NCBI RefSeq assembly: GCF_000337195.1
Contig: NZ_AOID01000031.1
Span: forward strand, 52,274-116,273
DNA length: 64,000 bases
DNA from: Natrinema versiforme JCM 10478
GTDB taxonomy: Archaea; Halobacteriota; Halobacteria; Halobacteriales; Natrialbaceae
Reading direction: 5' to 3'
Part shown: positions 4,228 through 59,567 of the stretch, one piece after another
Position numbering within the stretch: the stretch's first letter is position 1
Layout of the letters: each line of letters begins with the position of its first letter
The notes under the pieces: model-generated
What the model was told of the DNA's origin: nothing
Database searches by the model: none
What the model saw: only the letters and a program-made list of their open reading frames with translations
Translations under genes and position numbers: made by a program

Positions 4228-4394
4228 AGCGTCCCGACGTGTTGCCTCGCGGCCTGCGATCGCCGGGGGGTTAATAGGTTCCCGCTAGTAACCGGGCTAT
4301 CCGGACTGTTCGGTCTGCGTGAAAGTCACCGAGCTGGCTACCGCACTCACCTCCCAACCAAACGTTGATTTTCGGCTCGAGCGAACTCTCCCCC

Positions 4395-5534
4395 ATGGAA
4401 TTCCCGTTCGAGCGCCGGATCGCGGCCTGTCAGCGCCGACTCGAGCGCAATGGAGCCGATCTGGTCGTCTGCTTCCCGAGTCCGAACCTGACCTATCTGA
4501 CCGGCTTCGAGGAGTCGCCGTCCGAACGGCACCTGTTGCTGTTCGTTCCCGACACCGGCGACCCCGCGCTGGTCGCGCCGGCGATGTACGAGGAACAGCT
4601 GTCCGAGCTTCCGCTTTCGGAGCTTCGACTGCGGTGCTGGACCGACGCGGACGACCCGCTCGAGGTCGCCGAAGACGTACTGGAGGCCTATTCGCTCGGC
4701 CCGGCGACCGTCCTCGTCGACGACCGGATGTGGGCGACGTTCACGCAGGATTTGCGGGAACTCCTTCCCGACGCCGAGTTCGGCCTCGCGAGTGCCGTCC
4801 TCGAGCCGCTGCGAATCCGCAAGGACGACGTCGAACTCGCGGCGCTTCGGCGGGCCGGCGACCTCGCGGACCGCGTCTCGCTCGAGATCCGCGCACGCGG
4901 GGACGACCTGCTCGGGATGACCGAAGCAGAACTGGCGAGCGAGATCGATCGACTGCTCGCCGCGGCCGGCGGTGAGGAGCCGGCGTTCGAAACGATCGTC
5001 GCCGCCGGCCCGAACGGTGCCCGGCCTCACCACCACGGCGGCTCGCGGGAGATCGAGGCCGGCGATCCGATCGTCTTGGACTTCGGCGCGTTCGTCGAGT
5101 CCGAACTCGAGGCCGGAACGGCCCGCTATCCCGGCGACCAGACGCGGACGATCGTCGTCGGCGAACCGCCCGCCGAGTACGAGCGGGTCCACGATATCGT
5201 CAGGCAGGCCCAACAAGCTGCGGTCGACGCGATCGAGCCGGGTGTCACGGCCGGCTCGGTCGACCGCGCTGCCAGAGAAGTCATCGAGGACGCCGGCTAT
5301 GGCGACGCCTTCGTCCACCGGACCGGCCACGGCGTCGGTCTCGAGGTCCACGAACCGCCATACATCGTCGCGGGCAACGACCGCGAGCTCGAGCCCGGCA
5401 TGGTCTTTAGCGTCGAACCGGGGATCTACCTCGAGGGCGAGTTTGGCGTCCGGATCGAGGACCTCGTTGTGGTGACCGAGGACGGTGCCGAGCGACTGAA
5501 CGATACGCCGCGCGGCTGGGAGACTGGGCGCTGA
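4395..5534 (+). CDS. M24B family Xaa-Pro peptidase
   Basis: A probable dinuclear-metal aminopeptidase that releases residues ahead of proline (M24B, Xaa-Pro dipeptidase-like). The 379-residue protein has the N-terminal creatinase-like domain, including [13 protein letters not shown]. The C-terminal pita-bread domain supplies the expected metal ligands: Asp in LDFGAF, Asp in YPGDQTRT, His in [14 protein letters not shown], Glu in SVEPGIY and Glu in GVRIED. The ATG at 4395 was chosen because [16 protein letters not shown] matches the usual family N-terminus; a TTG at 4365 would add ten unremarkable residues. The gene stands alone between otsA and the origin region. Confidence 0.9.
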
Positions 5535-5542
5535 ATGGGAAG

Positions 5543-5616
5543 CTACCGCTGAGCGAGGAGTTATCGCTGAGTAGGGAGCCACCGCTGAGTGAGGAACTAT
5601 TGCTGAGTAGAGCGAC
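5543..5616. repeat. 18-bp imperfect tandem repeat, four copies
   Basis: CGCTGAG or TGCTGAG followed by a purine-rich GAGGAGT/TAGGGAGC segment starts at 5547, 5565, 5583 and 5601, an exact 18-base period. It lies just after the M24 peptidase stop codon, about 50 bases before the outermost origin box. No function is evident. Confidence 0.75.
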
Positions 5617-5662
5617 AGACAGTGTTCGAAACGGTGCGATGACTCGAGGCAGTGGAACGGGG

Positions 5663-5682
5663 ACACCGGGTTTCCGGTGAAA
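5663..5682 (-). promoter_or_regulatory. Origin recognition box A (outlying)
   Basis: The minus strand reads TTTCACCGGAAACCCGGTGT, the same 20-mer as boxes B, D and H. It lies beyond the 3' end of orc1/cdc6, in the same orientation as boxes B and C. Confidence 0.8.
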
Positions 5683-5764
5683 TGTCGGTTTGTTGCCCAC
5701 TGAACGGTGGCAATCGCGTCGAAATGCCTCGACAAGCTTTGGCGTGGCTCGGCGGTTCGCGGCG

Positions 5765-6970
5765 CTAGGACTCGTCGGTCTCGACGAGGACCGTCCGCAC
5801 GACCTCCGGATCCTCGAGTAACTGGTGTTCGGTGTAACTCCCCTCGGCGCTGCCGCCGCTCCGGCGGGCCTGCTCCAAGATGTCGAGGAACGCGTGTTCT
5901 TTCAGCAGGTCGCGCACCCGTCGGAGCGAGAGCGGTTCGGAGCGCTCCTGTCGGCAGATCTCCTCGTAGACGTCGTAGATCTTCGTCGTCCGGAACCCGT
6001 CTTCCTCGGTCGCGTTGAGCGAGAGCACCGCGAGCGCCTGCAGGACGTACCGCGAGTGCGGGGTCGAGCCGCGGATGAGTTCGCGGAAGCGATCGGTCTC
6101 GGCCCGCTCGCGGGCCTGCACGACGAACTCCTCGCGGACGGTCTCGCTGCCCTTCGACTGGGCGATCTCGCCGGCGTAACGGAGGATGTCGATCGCCTTC
6201 CGCGCGTCGCCGTGTTCCCGGGCGGCCAGCGCCGCGGCCCGGGGGATCACCGAGGGCTCGAGGACCCCATCCTTGAACGCGTCGCTGCGGGCCTGCATGA
6301 TGTCCCTGAGCTGGTTTGCGTCGTAAGGCGGGAAGACGAATTCACGCTCACAGAGGCTGGACTTCACCCGCTCGTCCAGTCGATCCTTGTACTTGATCTT
6401 GTTACTGATGCCGATCACCCCGATCTTACACGACTCGAGTTTGCCGGCCTCGCCCGCACGCGAGAGTTGCATGAGAATGTCGTCGTCGTCGAGTTTGTCG
6501 ACCTCGTCCAGAATCACGAGGACGACGTCGTACTGGGAGTCGAGTACTTTCCAAAGTCGCTTGTAGTACGTCGAGGTGCTGAGCCCCTTATCGGGGATTC
6601 GCACGTCGGTGCGCGCCGGTTCGTTCAGCGCGTGGGCGATCGTCTGGACGGCCTGGGTCTCCGTGTTGTCCTGTGCGCAGTCGACGTAGGCAAACGCCGA
6701 GGTGACGTCCTCGTCGCCCGCGACGCGGACGGCCCGTTCCGAGATGTACTTCGCACAGAGGGACTTTCCCGTCCCCGTCTTGCCGTAGATGAGGAGGTTG
6801 CTCGGGCTCTGGCCGAAGATCGCGGGGTTGACCGCGTTCGCGAGTTCCGAAATCTCGTCGCCCCGGCCGACGATTCGCCCCTCCGCGGGGAGGTGGTTGA
6901 TCTCGAGTAGTTCCTTGTTCTCGAAGATCGGGTCGTCGCGCGTGAACAGGTCGTCGCCGGAACTCGACAT
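5765..6970 (-). CDS. orc1/cdc6: Orc1/Cdc6 replication initiator ATPase
   Basis: Archaeal initiator that binds origin boxes, helps melt the origin and recruits the MCM helicase. The 401-residue protein has the AAA+ Walker A motif GKTGTGKS (63-70), Walker B LVILDEVDKL (151-160), sensor-1 region VIGISNKIKYKDRLDERV, and sensor-2 region around HGDARKAIDILRYAGEIA. The C-terminal winged helix holds EEICRQERSEPLSLRRVRDLL. Length is normal. The upstream intergenic region carries the matching recognition boxes. Box B begins only seven bases upstream of the start codon and overlaps the expected TATA position (about 7000), so self-repression is likely. Haloarchaea carry several such genes; each usually serves the origin beside it. 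Confidence 0.96.
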   Translation of the reverse strand: MSSSGDDLFTRDDPIFENKELLEINHLPAEGRIVGRGDEISELANAVNPAIFGQSPSNLLIYGKTGTGKSLCAKYISERAVRVAGDEDVTSAFAYVDCAQDNTETQAVQTIAHALNEPARTDVRIPDKGLSTSTYYKRLWKVLDSQYDVVLVILDEVDKLDDDDILMQLSRAGEAGKLESCKIGVIGISNKIKYKDRLDERVKSSLCEREFVFPPYDANQLRDIMQARSDAFKDGVLEPSVIPRAAALAAREHGDARKAIDILRYAGEIAQSKGSETVREEFVVQARERAETDRFRELIRGSTPHSRYVLQALAVLSLNATEEDGFRTTKIYDVYEEICRQERSEPLSLRRVRDLLKEHAFLDILEQARRSGGSAEGSYTEHQLLEDPEVVRTVLVETDES

Positions 6971-6976
6971 GGTCGA

Positions 6977-6996
6977 ACACCGGGTTTCCGGTGAAA
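6977..6996 (-). promoter_or_regulatory. Origin recognition box B, overlapping the orc1 promoter
   Basis: Minus strand TTTCACCGGAAACCCGGTGT, seven bases upstream of the orc1/cdc6 ATG. The CACTATTT segment directly upstream is the only TATA-like sequence at the leaderless distance, so initiator bound here should block its own promoter. Confidence 0.88.
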
Positions 6997-7152
6997 TAGT
7001 GTTTCCGTTTGGCAGCGCGGGCTCGAGTCCAAACGGAGACGGAGAGTACTGAGTCCTGAAACGGGTAGAATCGCCTGCTCAATTTTCAGTTGATTTGCTC
7101 GATTGGATTCACATGTGTTGACTGCCTCCGGTGATCGATCGGGTGTGGACAC

Positions 7153-7172
7153 ACACCGTGTTTCCGGTGAAA
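7153..7172 (-). promoter_or_regulatory. Origin recognition box C
   Basis: Minus strand TTTCACCGGAAACACGGTGT. It is the last left-hand box before the AT-rich unwinding stretch. Confidence 0.88.
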
Positions 7173-7338
7173 CGGGAAAATGGCGGGTGAGGGGTGCAGT
7201 TGAAACGGGGGTTTGACCTTCCCAACCGAGAGAATAGGAGACGAGATCACCGACAGCGGCGGGAATCATCGATTACGACAGCATCGAATCCGGCTATCGG
7301 CTCGAGTGGACGGTCATTCTGACTCCCTTTTCCGAACC

Positions 7339-7402
7339 ACTATTCTGATCTACTTAGTGGACTATAGACATAACATATACATATATGTAACTATAATAGA
7401 TC
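7339..7402. other. AT-rich duplex unwinding element
   Basis: This is the most AT-rich stretch of the origin, lying between converging boxes C and D. It contains the perfect 12-base palindrome TACATATATGTA at 7378-7389. The position and composition fit the first melted site; direct proof would need strand-opening data. Confidence 0.75.
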
Positions 7403-7518
7403 GTGATCGGAGCGTCATTCGCGGATATCGATCAAGACGGAGGTAGTTAGAGAGCGGAGTCGATTGAATCGAGTTCTCGCAATCAGTTCGCTGTTCACAG
7501 CGGCGGTCCGTTGCCGGC

Positions 7519-7538
7519 TTTCACCGGAAACCCGGTGT
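7519..7538 (+). promoter_or_regulatory. Origin recognition box D
   Basis: TTTCACCGGAAACCCGGTGT, the first right-hand box, in opposite orientation to boxes A to C. Confidence 0.88.
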
Positions 7539-7680
7539 GTGACCGCTGAATTCCCTGCGGAACGACGAGCCCTGACGGTTCGGTTCCGCTACATGCCGTC
7601 TCCCCTCTCACTACACCCCGAGATTTCTCGGGTGCCGTCTCACCCCACTCGCTGCTATCGTCCGACCCGCTTCGTGCCGT

Positions 7681-7700
7681 TTCACCGGAAACGTGGTGTG
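7681..7700 (+). promoter_or_regulatory. Origin recognition box E
   Basis: TTTCACCGGAAACGTGGTGT, one mismatch in the right half of the dyad. Confidence 0.85.
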
Positions 7701-7778
7701 AGTGCAGTCGCTCCGAACGATCTCTGAGCGAATCGTTCGCTCGAGACTCGATTCCGTCTCCCGATCGCCGAAAACCGG

Positions 7779-7798
7779 ATTCACCGGAAACACGGTGT
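7779..7798 (+). promoter_or_regulatory. Origin recognition box F
   Basis: ATTCACCGGAAACACGGTGT, differing from the consensus only at the first base. Confidence 0.85.
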
Positions 7799-7849
7799 GT
7801 CCGCCCGCGACGGACTCGTCCGTCGAGAACACGTTCGTCAGTGACGGGA

Positions 7850-7869
7850 ATCCACCGGAAAGACGGTGT
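7850..7869 (+). promoter_or_regulatory. Origin recognition box G (degenerate)
   Basis: ATCCACCGGAAAGACGGTGT, with three differences from the consensus, so probably a weaker site. Confidence 0.75.
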
Positions 7870-7933
7870 CCGCACAACTGGCTCTGGTCCCGCTAACCAC
7901 AGTCTTGACTATCGAACCCGATCGCCGCGCACC

Positions 7934-7953
7934 TTTCACCGGAAACCCGGTGT
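7934..7953 (+). promoter_or_regulatory. Origin recognition box H
   Basis: TTTCACCGGAAACCCGGTGT, identical to boxes A, B and D. Confidence 0.88.
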
Positions 7954-7995
7954 GTTACACTGTCATGGCCTTACTTCCTTCCCGATCCGCGTGAC

Positions 7996-8015
7996 TTTCA
8001 CCGGAAACACGGTGT
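7996..8015 (+). promoter_or_regulatory. Origin recognition box I
   Basis: TTTCACCGGAAACACGGTGT, the outermost clear right-hand box. A degenerate dyad TTCACCGGTCGATCGGTGA follows at about 8077 but lacks the GAAAC core. Confidence 0.88.
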
Positions 8016-8192
8016 GGGGGCCTCGCGACGCCCGATCCGGAGATCTCCCTGGGTGACGTGGCGACTCGCGATACCGTTCACCGGTCGATCGGTGATCGGC
8101 CGGCCTTTCCCGCTCACCGGCCGACTCTGCCGAATAGTGCTCGTTCGGCGATGCGTACCGGACCGCATCCGGTCCCGGTTGCCCCGGGTCGC

Positions 8193-8369
8193 TCAGTAGT
8201 AGTAGAGCTCGAGTTCGTGACCGCAGTTCCGACACTGGGTTTCCTTCCCCAGCAGTCGGTTCGAGTCGCTTTCCGCGTGGATCCCCGGACCTGGGGGAAC
8301 GGACGCGTCGACTGTTGCATCACACTCCGGACAGCCGATATGCATATCTGCGTGACCTGTGCGAGACAT
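8193..8369 (-). CDS. Small CxxC zinc-finger protein, 58 residues
   Basis: A short gene that length filters would miss. From ATG at 8369 it encodes 58 residues with two zinc knuckles: IGCPECDATVDA near residues 11-22 and ETQCRNCGHELELYYY at the C-terminus. Four cysteines in two CxxC pairs, about 35 residues apart, are enough for one zinc ribbon. Haloarchaea have many such small zinc-finger proteins, some shown to affect motility, biofilm or stress behaviour; none of that can be assigned here. It sits at the right edge of the origin and is transcribed toward it. Confidence 0.8.
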   Translation of the reverse strand: MSRTGHADMHIGCPECDATVDASVPPGPGIHAESDSNRLLGKETQCRNCGHELELYYY

Positions 8370-8591: not shown

Positions 8592-9695
8592 CTATACGGT
8601 GTACGTGATGTCTTCGAACTCGAAAAAGGTCGTCTCGTAGCCGTCGTGGCGGGAAACCTGCGGCGGCGAGTCGACGGTAATCGTCACGCGGTCCCCGGTC
8701 GCGAGTTCGTCGACCGCGAGCCCGTAGTGATACCCAATCTCGTCGTCGAGCGCCTGCGAAAGCGGTCCCTCGCCGACCACCATCCCGTCGCGTTCGACGG
8801 TCGCAGAGAGCGAGGTAAGCGGGAGCAGGACGTCGTTGTACGGCGTTCTAGGGGATACCGCCAGATACGAGCCGCCGTCGGCGAACCGATCGGCGTCGGT
8901 GACGAGTGCGGCAAACGCCGCGTCGCCGCTGCGCTCGGTACCCAGCGACTCGCCGGGAAGTTCCTCGAACGCGGGGGCCTGCCCCATCGGCGGCGGGCCG
9001 AGTTCGCCGCCACCGTCGCCGTGGTCCATCAGCGACAGCGCGCCCTCCTCCCCCCACCGATCCTCGTCGATCGTCTGGAACGAGAGGCCATTGATGTCCG
9101 ACCGGGCGTACTCGAAGTCGACCTCGAGCGACCCCTGCGATTCCAGTCGCCCCTCGAAGCCGCCGGTACGCTCGAGGCTGCCCCCGACCGGACCGGCTCG
9201 AACGCGGACCGTGTACTCCCCCTCGCCGGGCAGTTGGACGTTGTCTCCGTAGTGAAAGCCCATCCGCTGGGAGATCATGGGCCACGGCGAAGAGATGCCG
9301 TCGTCGATCGGGGAACCGTCTTGTCGGATCTCGAGTTGCATGTCCGTCGGCAGAACGGTTCGTGTCTCGCGGTCCCAGACGGTAACCATGAGGTGCAGGC
9401 TGTCGTCGGTGCCGACCTCGACGAGTTCCGTCTCGTCGCCGTTGACGAGCCAAAAGCGGTGCGGGAAGGTATACGAGAGCGCGACCGCGTAGTCGCCGTC
9501 GGCGGCCATCCCGTAGCTCCGCATCTCCTCGCTCGAGGATGGGAGATAGACGGCGTCGGGGCGATTCTCCACGAGCGGCGGGTTCGCCCACGCGGATTCT
9601 TCTTCGAATCCGAGTCGCTCGAGACAGCCGGCGAGCCCGGCGGTTCCGACGGCTCCGATCCCGGCCGCGCCACGGAGGAAACCCCGACGATTCAT
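8592..9695 (-). CDS. Tat lipoprotein with P19-like metal-binding domain
   Basis: A 367-residue predicted surface lipoprotein. It begins MNRRGFLRG (twin-arginine) and has a lipobox ending in Cys24 (GLAGC). The middle segment MISQRMGFHYGDNVQLPGEGEYTVRVRAGP resembles the P19/Tp34 family of periplasmic iron- or copper-binding proteins, in which the HYG and loop residues lie near the metal. Methionines and histidines (PPPMGQAP, LMDHGDGGG, GYHYGL) are plentiful. It is divergently transcribed from the Sco-TlpA-CcdA operon, which supports a role in metal acquisition or cuproprotein assembly. The family call is by recognition of the motif; the metal is unknown. Confidence 0.65.
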   Translation of the reverse strand: MNRRGFLRGAAGIGAVGTAGLAGCLERLGFEEESAWANPPLVENRPDAVYLPSSSEEMRSYGMAADGDYAVALSYTFPHRFWLVNGDETELVEVGTDDSLHLMVTVWDRETRTVLPTDMQLEIRQDGSPIDDGISSPWPMISQRMGFHYGDNVQLPGEGEYTVRVRAGPVGGSLERTGGFEGRLESQGSLEVDFEYARSDINGLSFQTIDEDRWGEEGALSLMDHGDGGGELGPPPMGQAPAFEELPGESLGTERSGDAAFAALVTDADRFADGGSYLAVSPRTPYNDVLLPLTSLSATVERDGMVVGEGPLSQALDDEIGYHYGLAVDELATGDRVTITVDSPPQVSRHDGYETTFFEFEDITYTV

Positions 9696-58087: not shown

Positions 58088-59567
58088 CGTTGCCTCCGTC
58101 CGTGCGGTGGGCCGCCGGTTCGCCGTCGGCGGCCGCCGCTCGTTCGGTCGGCTCCGCCGAGCCGGTCTCGCCCGCGCTATCGGGCGATCCCCGCGGCGGT
58201 CGGCCGTCGCTCGAGCCGCCGAGATCGTACTCGCGGTGTGGCGTTTCCGAGAGGTCGACCGCGTCCCGGCCGTCGAGGACCACCATCGGCTCGAGGGCGG
58301 GCCAGTCGATGCGATCGAAGTCCGCGTGCGGGGTGACGATCACGGCGGCGTCGAACCCTTCGTCGGCGATTTCGTCGATTCCCACGGCTCGAGCGCCGTA
58401 ATCGGCCGGATCGACGAGCGGGTCGACGCCCGCGATATCGGCCCCCCGCTCACGCAGGCCGTCGATGATTCCCAGCGCGGGCGATGCGCGGGTCTCCTCG
58501 ACGCCCGGTCGATACGTCACGCCGAGGACGATGACCGAGGCGTCCGCGAGGTCGGTGCCGGTCGCCGCGAGTTCCCGCTCGAGGCGGTCGACGACGACCG
58601 CTGGCATTTCGTCGTTGACCCGGCGAGCCGTCTCGGTCACGGCCATCGGCTCGTCGGTGCGGCCGAGCAGGAAGTGCGGGTAGTACGGAATGCAGTGGCC
58701 GCCGACGCCCGGGCCGGGATCGTGGAGCTGGCACATCGGCAGGTCGTTGGCCGTGTCGATCGCCTCACGAACGGAGATCTCGAGTTCGTCCGCGAGCCGC
58801 CCCAACTCGTTTGCCAGCCCGATGTTCACGTCGCGGTAGAGCCCCTCGAACACCTTGACGGACTCCGCGGTCGTCGCGTCCGAGACAGGATGGACCTCGT
58901 TGTCCGAGAGTTCGTCGTAGACGATCGCCGCCGCGCGCGTGCTCTCGTCGTCGACGCCGCCGACGACCTTGGGGTACTGGCCGCGGATGTCCCGGAGCGC
59001 CGTCCCAGAGGACGTCCGCTCCGGACAGAACGCGAGCCCGAACTCGTCGGGCTCGAGGCCGCTCTCGCTCGCGAGGTGGGGCCGGAGGACGTCCCGACAG
59101 GTGCCCGGCGGGAGCGTCGACTCGGCGATCACCAGATCGCCGGGCGCGAGGCCGGCCGCGATGTCGTCGGCGACCGACTCGACCGTCGCGAGGTTCGGCT
59201 CGTTGTCGTCGTCCAGCAGCGTCGGGACGATGATGACGTGGATCCGCGCCGCGTCGGCGGCCGCCGATCCGTCGGTCGTTGCCGTGAGCCGGCCGGCGTC
59301 GACCTGTTCGGCGACCAGGTCGTCGAGGCCGGGCTCGCCGACGACGTGGCTCTCGCCGTCCGAAACCGTCTCGACGACGGCCGGATCGACGTCGACGCCG
59401 GTCACGTTCCCCATCGTCTCGGCGTAGACCGCCGCGAGCGGGAGCCCCATCTTGCCGAGCCCGTAGACGGCGACCGGAACGTCACCGCTCGTTACCCGGT
59501 CGCGCTGTCGGCTCGGCGACTGGCTCGAGCCGTAGAGTCCCTCTCCCTCGGTCGAGGACTCCGCCAT
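58080..59567 (-). CDS. UDP-N-acetylhexosamine 6-dehydrogenase (WbpA/WecC-like)
   Basis: Oxidises a UDP-HexNAc at C6 to the uronic acid with two NAD. The 495-residue protein has the Rossmann motif VAVYGLGKMGLPLAAVYAETMGNVTGVDVD, AESTLPPGTC, FCPERTSSGTALRDIRGQYPKVVGG, and the catalytic Cys in GPGVGGHCIPYYPHFL, followed by the C-terminal UDP-binding domain. ATG at 59567 overlaps the previous stop as TGATG. The first 28 residues and last 45 residues are low-complexity extensions. With the three neighbouring genes it would complete UDP-GlcNAc(3NAc)A synthesis. Confidence 0.9.
   Translation of the reverse strand: MAESSTEGEGLYGSSQSPSRQRDRVTSGDVPVAVYGLGKMGLPLAAVYAETMGNVTGVDVDPAVVETVSDGESHVVGEPGLDDLVAEQVDAGRLTATTDGSAAADAARIHVIIVPTLLDDDNEPNLATVESVADDIAAGLAPGDLVIAESTLPPGTCRDVLRPHLASESGLEPDEFGLAFCPERTSSGTALRDIRGQYPKVVGGVDDESTRAAAIVYDELSDNEVHPVSDATTAESVKVFEGLYRDVNIGLANELGRLADELEISVREAIDTANDLPMCQLHDPGPGVGGHCIPYYPHFLLGRTDEPMAVTETARRVNDEMPAVVVDRLERELAATGTDLADASVIVLGVTYRPGVEETRASPALGIIDGLRERGADIAGVDPLVDPADYGARAVGIDEIADEGFDAAVIVTPHADFDRIDWPALEPMVVLDGRDAVDLSETPHREYDLGGSSDGRPPRGSPDSAGETGSAEPTERAAAADGEPAAHRTDGGNDV

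Follow-up and report, generated by a model that had tools for sequence, protein, structure and literature searches.

Organization of the locus

The window, the whole 64,000-nucleotide stretch of Natrinema versiforme JCM 10478 DNA that was analysed, carries an orc1/cdc6 initiator gene surrounded by nine copies of a repeated box, which form opposed arrays around an AT-rich core. The features of the locus are as follows.

4365..5534, plus strand: M24 (Xaa-Pro) peptidase gene that borders the empty site of origin-less genomes on one side
5663..5682, minus strand: terminal box, past the 3' end of orc1/cdc6; in N. altunense an inversion breakpoint falls in its homologue
5765..6970, minus strand: orc1/cdc6 initiator gene, 401 aa, AAA+ and winged-helix (TIGR02928, 435 bits, residues 15-384)
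6977..6996, minus strand: promoter box, spanning 26 to 7 bp upstream of the orc1/cdc6 start codon; putative autorepression operator
7153..7172, minus strand: inner box of the gene-side array, exact consensus
7191..7213, plus strand: second element, ORB-like, GGGGTGCAGTTGAAACGGGGGTT; its distance from the inner box is 41 bp
7330..7419, no strand: AT-rich stretch, candidate unwinding element, GC 0.32, with the palindrome TACATATATGTA at 7378-7389
7519..7538, plus strand: innermost box of the distal array
7680..7699, plus strand: distal-array box, 2 mismatches
7779..7798, plus strand: distal-array box
7850..7869, plus strand: distal-array box, 3 mismatches, the weakest
7934..7953, plus strand: distal-array box
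7996..8015, plus strand: outermost distal-array box, exact consensus; its homologue holds the other inversion breakpoint; no other box of the window has a G run
8592..9695, minus strand: flanking twin-arginine-signal (TAT) protein gene, the other side of the empty site

The inverted arrays around an AT-rich core beside orc1/cdc6, described in an earlier sequence-only reading, are borne out by the window sequence, and all nine boxes lie at the positions and on the strands proposed, except that the one placed at 7681 starts at 7680. The 20-mer that they were said to share is exact in two of them (7153 and 7996); five others have one mismatch, the box at 7680 has two and that at 7850 has three. 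None of 100 dinucleotide shuffles contained a box match, giving a chance expectation of zero. Zero-mismatch matches to the box pattern number ten in the 4.19-Mb genome, nine at this locus and one at C26:126800, and the wide genomic dispersal that the same reading had named as an argument against an origin is not seen. The proposal that the origin brackets its initiator gene also holds, with the terminal box sitting 82 bp beyond the orc1/cdc6 stop codon.

The lone exact box elsewhere (G000:C26:126800-126817; L001:1501-1518 and L114) lies between convergent mutS and yihY-like genes. A box with at most one mismatch follows mutS by 11-129 bp in 8 of 22 origin-bearing Natrinema-genus genomes and in none of the 7 origin-less ones, and in two genomes (G023 and G027) it is roughly midway between oriC1 and the accessory origin. 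Within the window, four imperfect 18-bp tandem units of the CGCTGAGTAGGGAGCCAC type (5529-5618) lie between the end of the peptidase gene and the terminal box. The interval between the array and the TAT gene contains a small conserved zinc-ribbon-like open reading frame of about 58 aa that ends in ELYYY (8193-8369, minus strand) and is retained in origin-less genomes as well.

The initiator and its promoter box

The initiator matches Orc1-1 of S. solfataricus (2qby_A, E 2e-64, aligned over 14-399) and ORC1 of A. pernix (2v1u_A, E 2e-60), and its closest named relatives are from Natrinema species, at 97% identity. It is one of 13 Orc1/Cdc6 matches in the genome. As in ori-cdc6 pairs, the orc1/cdc6 gene is full-length, encodes both AAA+ and winged-helix domains and directly adjoins the intergenic region, and inverted repeated boxes flank an AT-rich element.

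Conservation was followed across 35 loci, comprising the window and 34 relatives with an Orc 77-100% identical, which span Natrialbales and several other haloarchaeal genera. A promoter box precedes the initiator start in all 35, at -26 to -38 bp, directly 3' of a conserved motif, CAAACGGAA or CAAACAGTAAAG, which is a possible core promoter. This invariant placement suggests autorepression of the initiator. Boxes downstream of the gene occur in 26 of the 35 loci, at one to nine per locus and usually one to three; the window has one. Nine follow orc in a Halorientalis marina plasmid, and seven of these recur every 39 bp in the manner of plasmid iterons (L066:7232-7671); in Haloterrigena sp. H1 about 0.65 kb of extra DNA, possibly a mobile element, separates orc from its downstream box. 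Cumulative GC skew has a local peak at position 59,000 of the contig that holds the window (C31) and its whole-contig maximum at 13 kb, lending the origin weak support.

Linkage of the box family to the initiator family

Boxes surround the Orc1/Cdc6 ortholog at every one of the 35 loci, for a total of 297, whereas none was found beside the genes of those 51-57% identical Orc relatives that were scanned. Among 29 Natrinema-genus genomes, 22 possess both a 94-100% identical ortholog and the boxes, and the remaining seven have neither. This joint presence and absence across loci and genomes indicates that the box travels with the initiator. Linkage of a box family to an Orc family is a general haloarchaeal pattern in the survey by Wu et al. 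2012 (PMC3528665), which also includes origins with ORBs on both sides of the gene.

Two other candidate sites were set aside. A box-like site found at -2.2 to -3.0 kb in many relatives falls inside the TAT-signal gene, on the conserved coding motif DTVLPVD, and is probably coding. The sequence TCCACGGGAAACGGGGG, considered as an ORB upstream of the 55% family, is conserved together with its flank and is probably coding too.

Box asymmetry, polarity and the absent G-string

The 297 boxes yield the consensus TTYCACCGGAAACnYGGTGTG, in which only pairs 4-7/16-19 are symmetric (0.93-1.00). Pairs 2/21, 3/20, 10/13 and 11/12 are antisymmetric (0.00-0.11), most of these positions being nearly invariant, and the 5' TT, the central GGAAAC and the 3' GGTGT are likewise asymmetric and nearly invariant. 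Orientation is almost fixed: distal to the AT-rich core, boxes point one way by 150 to 4, and those downstream of the gene share one direction in 46 of 47 cases. On the gene side the ratio is 71 to 23, with nearly all 23 exceptions representing one conserved inner box. The boxes thus have their 3' ends facing outward, and the mutated G-strings described in PMC3936714 imply the same polarity for H. hispanica oriC1. The sequence-only reading had taken the CACCG...CGGTG dyad to mean that each box could bind in two orientations, and a related model has Orc bound there as a symmetric dimer. The CACC/GGTG arms are indeed 93-100% conserved; however, the asymmetric invariant positions, the nearly fixed polarity and the precedent of Sulfolobus ORBs, each bound by one Orc1-1 monomer with defined polarity (PMC12141716), make two-orientation binding unlikely and leave that model with very little probability.

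Known haloarchaeal ORBs end in a G-string, which the AAA+ domain is believed to read and which is reportedly essential to ARS activity at H. hispanica oriC1. Runs of at least four G occur in only 13 of the 297 boxes, and in one of the nine in the window, while alternating GT or GC follows the box in 147 of 297, about half. The Wu et al. 2012 survey (PMC3528665) demanded a 3' G-string as a search criterion for haloarchaeal origins and reported it for known ones, in contrast to the boxes here. Because the G-string is missing, the locus is filed as a variant and not as a standard ori-cdc6 member. Its absence had escaped the sequence-only reading. So had the promoter position of one box, the additional ORB-like element, the derivation of the locus from a plasmid, its inversion and its losses.

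The AT-rich core and a second ORB-like element

From the initiator gene outward, the order of elements is promoter box, inner box, ORB-like element, AT-rich peak and distal array. An AT peak occupies the equivalent position between opposed boxes throughout the family, and the 12-base palindrome reported at 7378-7389 does lie inside the most AT-rich stretch of the intergenic region. In 23 loci the inner box has an inverted partner 61-65 bp away (19 loci) or 71-72 bp away (4 loci), a distance of about six or seven helical turns, and the ORB-like element adjoins this partner. The window retains the inner box and the ORB-like element and lacks the inverted partner. In N. hispanicum, the array contains about 1.5 kb of extra DNA, possibly a mobile element.

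The second element, AACCCCCGTTTCAACTGGACCCC, is present in 29 of 35 loci at a distance of 39-42 bp from the inner box; at least 19 of 23 positions match in 23 loci, against a maximum of 17 in shuffles. Read as the reverse complement, TCCAGTTGAAACGGGGG, it has TCCAGTTGAAACG in common with an oriC1 ORB found elsewhere in the genome (C45:97501). The five best genomic matches to a 17-mer of the element comprise the element itself and four sites on the oriC1 contig (C45), three of which fall within 6 kb around the oriC1 initiator. In its 5' part, TCCAGTTGAAACG, the element resembles oriC1 ORBs, but it has 2 bp fewer than they do between GAAAC and the G run. As a true oriC1 ORB the element was rejected: on a matrix built from 47 oriC1 ORBs it scores about -19 to +10 against 36-41, although these values exceed shuffles in most loci. 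The low score lowered the designation from oriC1 ORB to ORB-like.

The element may be bound by the oriC1 initiator, the local initiator or another protein. A speculative and rather improbable reading is that TCCAGTTGAAACGGGGG serves as a docking site for Orc1/Cdc6A, through which the oriC1 initiator would license or silence the accessory plasmid-derived origin. Cdc6A has been proposed as a factor common to several origins on the ground that cdc6A, unlike oriC1, is very hard to delete (PMC3936714). If the docking model were true, the element would be the cis-element for the cross-origin coordination proposed for Cdc6A (PMC3936714).

Comparison with known origins

The oriC1 of the same genome lies on another contig (C45), where a 605-aa Orc1/Cdc6, encoded at 94638-96452, is accompanied by an inverted ORB pair with long G-strings and by signal-peptidase and DNA-polymerase small-subunit genes, named from reading their translations. 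The hallmarks of oriC1, namely cdc6A, the signal peptidase and polymerase neighbours and the G-string ORBs, are at C45 and not at the window locus. The two systems share an AT-rich core between inverted boxes beside orc1/cdc6 (oriC1-cdc6A, PMC4010727), a common register TYCA...GAAAC..GG and the same outward polarity. They differ in that oriC1 has two ORBs with long G-strings (TCCACTCGAAACGAAGGGGTGGGGG), whereas the present locus has nine boxes with a GT-rich tract or none, and another initiator. Around oriC1 (L174, C45), ORB-like sites with G runs also occur within coding sequence, as an inverted pair in a linker of the DNA-polymerase small subunit and a single site in the linker of the oriC1 initiator (91786, 91841 and 95726).

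A parallel in layout is oriC2-cdc6E of Haloarcula hispanica (PMC3936714), likened here by description and not by Orc or box sequence. ORB repeats flank cdc6 on both sides, as they do here, and both are accessory origins beside oriC1 with possibly titrating downstream ORBs. The H. hispanica locus has a 722-bp ORB-rich downstream region, compared with the usual one to three boxes in this family (one in the window), and it has the G-string that is absent here. In Sulfolobus oriC1 (PMC12141716), inverted ORBs around an AT-rich region are joined by an extra conserved element, ucm; this likeness too is one of description. Where ucm is a non-ORB element, the extra element here is ORB-like and stands beside a box instead of within the AT-rich core.

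Plasmid relatives, probable losses and an inversion

Collinearity with the H. turkmenica plasmid pHTUR04, interrupted by one rearrangement, extends over the entire window (1-64,000) and about 100 kb of its contig (67 open frames). The origin of this 172-kb plasmid (HTUR_RS24630) has an Orc 90% identical and shares with the window the boxes, the ORB-like element (at -212) and the order of neighbouring genes, in contrast to the chromosomal setting of the Natrinema locus in contiguous relatives. PLSDB contains 39 plasmids with an Orc at least 60% identical to that of the window, most of them 60-600 kb, and the Orc lineage resides mostly on secondary replicons of roughly 70-400 kb. This distribution makes a plasmid state look ancestral. 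Contiguous Natrinema relatives carry the locus on the chromosome, and in the closest of them (G027) it shares a contig (C2) with oriC1 and mutS. Chromosomal placement in the strain of the window, where the locus is on a separate 135-kb contig (C31), would follow from these relatives.

In the seven origin-less genomes, the M24 peptidase gene directly adjoins the TAT-signal gene, forming an empty site. These genomes fall in three places on the oriC1-initiator gene tree, and one of them (G024) has kept a decayed terminal box, TTTTCACCGAAAACTCAGTGTCCC, at the matching spot. All Natrialbales loci examined have the origin in this neighbourhood, which makes losses the simpler explanation, and the pattern suggests that the origin was lost more than once in Natrinema.

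In N. altunense and N. pallidum (L036/L037), the cassette of orc and arrays is inverted relative to its flanks. Base-by-base alignment of N. altunense with N. gari places both breakpoints inside the terminal boxes. The inversion was probably a single event between 21-bp inverted copies, with no recombinase implied.

Proposed function

Taken with the anatomy of the locus, the observed conservation, co-occurrence, synteny, empty sites and inversion point with good confidence to an accessory ori-cdc6 replicator-initiator pair of a plasmid-type lineage, now in the Natrinema chromosome, with directional Orc loading, self-repression and titration. The mechanism is proposed from anatomy and precedent. 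The 401-aa Orc1/Cdc6 would bind the boxes in one fixed orientation, so that the opposed arrays would put Orc on either side of the AT-rich element (7330-7419), which would then melt for MCM loading. At the 6977-6996 box, between the likely core-promoter motif and the start codon, Orc would repress its own gene. The outer and downstream boxes would provide extra binding capacity, as in oriC2D of H. hispanica, where a downstream ORB cluster acts as a negative regulator (PMC3936714). With oriC1 also present, the origin would be dispensable in Natrinema. The absent G-string and the seven Natrinema-genus species that live without this origin count against this explanation.

A possible alternative, though of somewhat less than even probability, is that the origin is dormant or decaying, the chromosome starting at oriC1 and the present locus firing rarely or when other origins fail. 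Dormant origins are documented in Haloferax mediterranei (PMC4595724), and the absence from three separate parts of the genus tree, the empty sites and the relic box in G024 are in keeping with such a state. An apparent counterpart, which favours an origin here, exists in Natrinema J7: its predicted oriC5 and oriC6 flank a 1206-bp gap, the length of the orc1/cdc6 gene here, and its oriC6 (210 bp, 66.67% GC) equals exactly the downstream spacer of the N. gari ortholog. This correspondence rests on lengths and GC and not on sequence, and the J7 upstream spacer, when compared, did not agree in length. Plasmid pFJ3, which carries the J7 region, yielded some 39 cfu/ug, about 50-fold fewer than the roughly 2000 of the best J7 vectors (PMC5350488), a weak ARS that agrees with dormancy and counts against the main explanation. 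The apparent counterpart therefore probably replicates poorly, or else the resident copy works against it, as happens with oriC2 plasmids in H. hispanica (PMC3936714); the origin may accordingly be weak, dormant or incompatible with a resident copy. Against dormancy, the boxes and the initiator are intact in 22 of 29 genomes, and the promoter box has been retained at every locus.

It is improbable that the boxes serve mainly as operators through which an Orc-type regulator controls transcription, and do not make up a replication origin. The constant presence of one box at the initiator promoter, the lone box elsewhere in the genome and the known non-initiator Orc1-2 regulator of Sulfolobales (PMC9738581) fit this idea, but six of the nine boxes form a polarised array far upstream, across the AT-rich core, box copies are otherwise confined to the locus, and the Orc family is found on many plasmids, which need an initiator.

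Significance

The locus is best regarded, from its sequence and that of its relatives, as a genuine, conserved accessory replicator of plasmid type in the chromosome, with a box class that lacks the G-string and with predicted replication activity. A second type of haloarchaeal initiator box, without the G-string, provides a test of how Orc proteins choose origins. Self-repression by archaeal initiators can be tested with the invariant promoter box, and action of the oriC1 initiator on other origins with the second ORB-like element. The Natrinema series, in which the origin is plasmid-borne in relatives, chromosomal, inverted, or lost with a relic left behind, constitutes a natural record of the fate of a captured origin.
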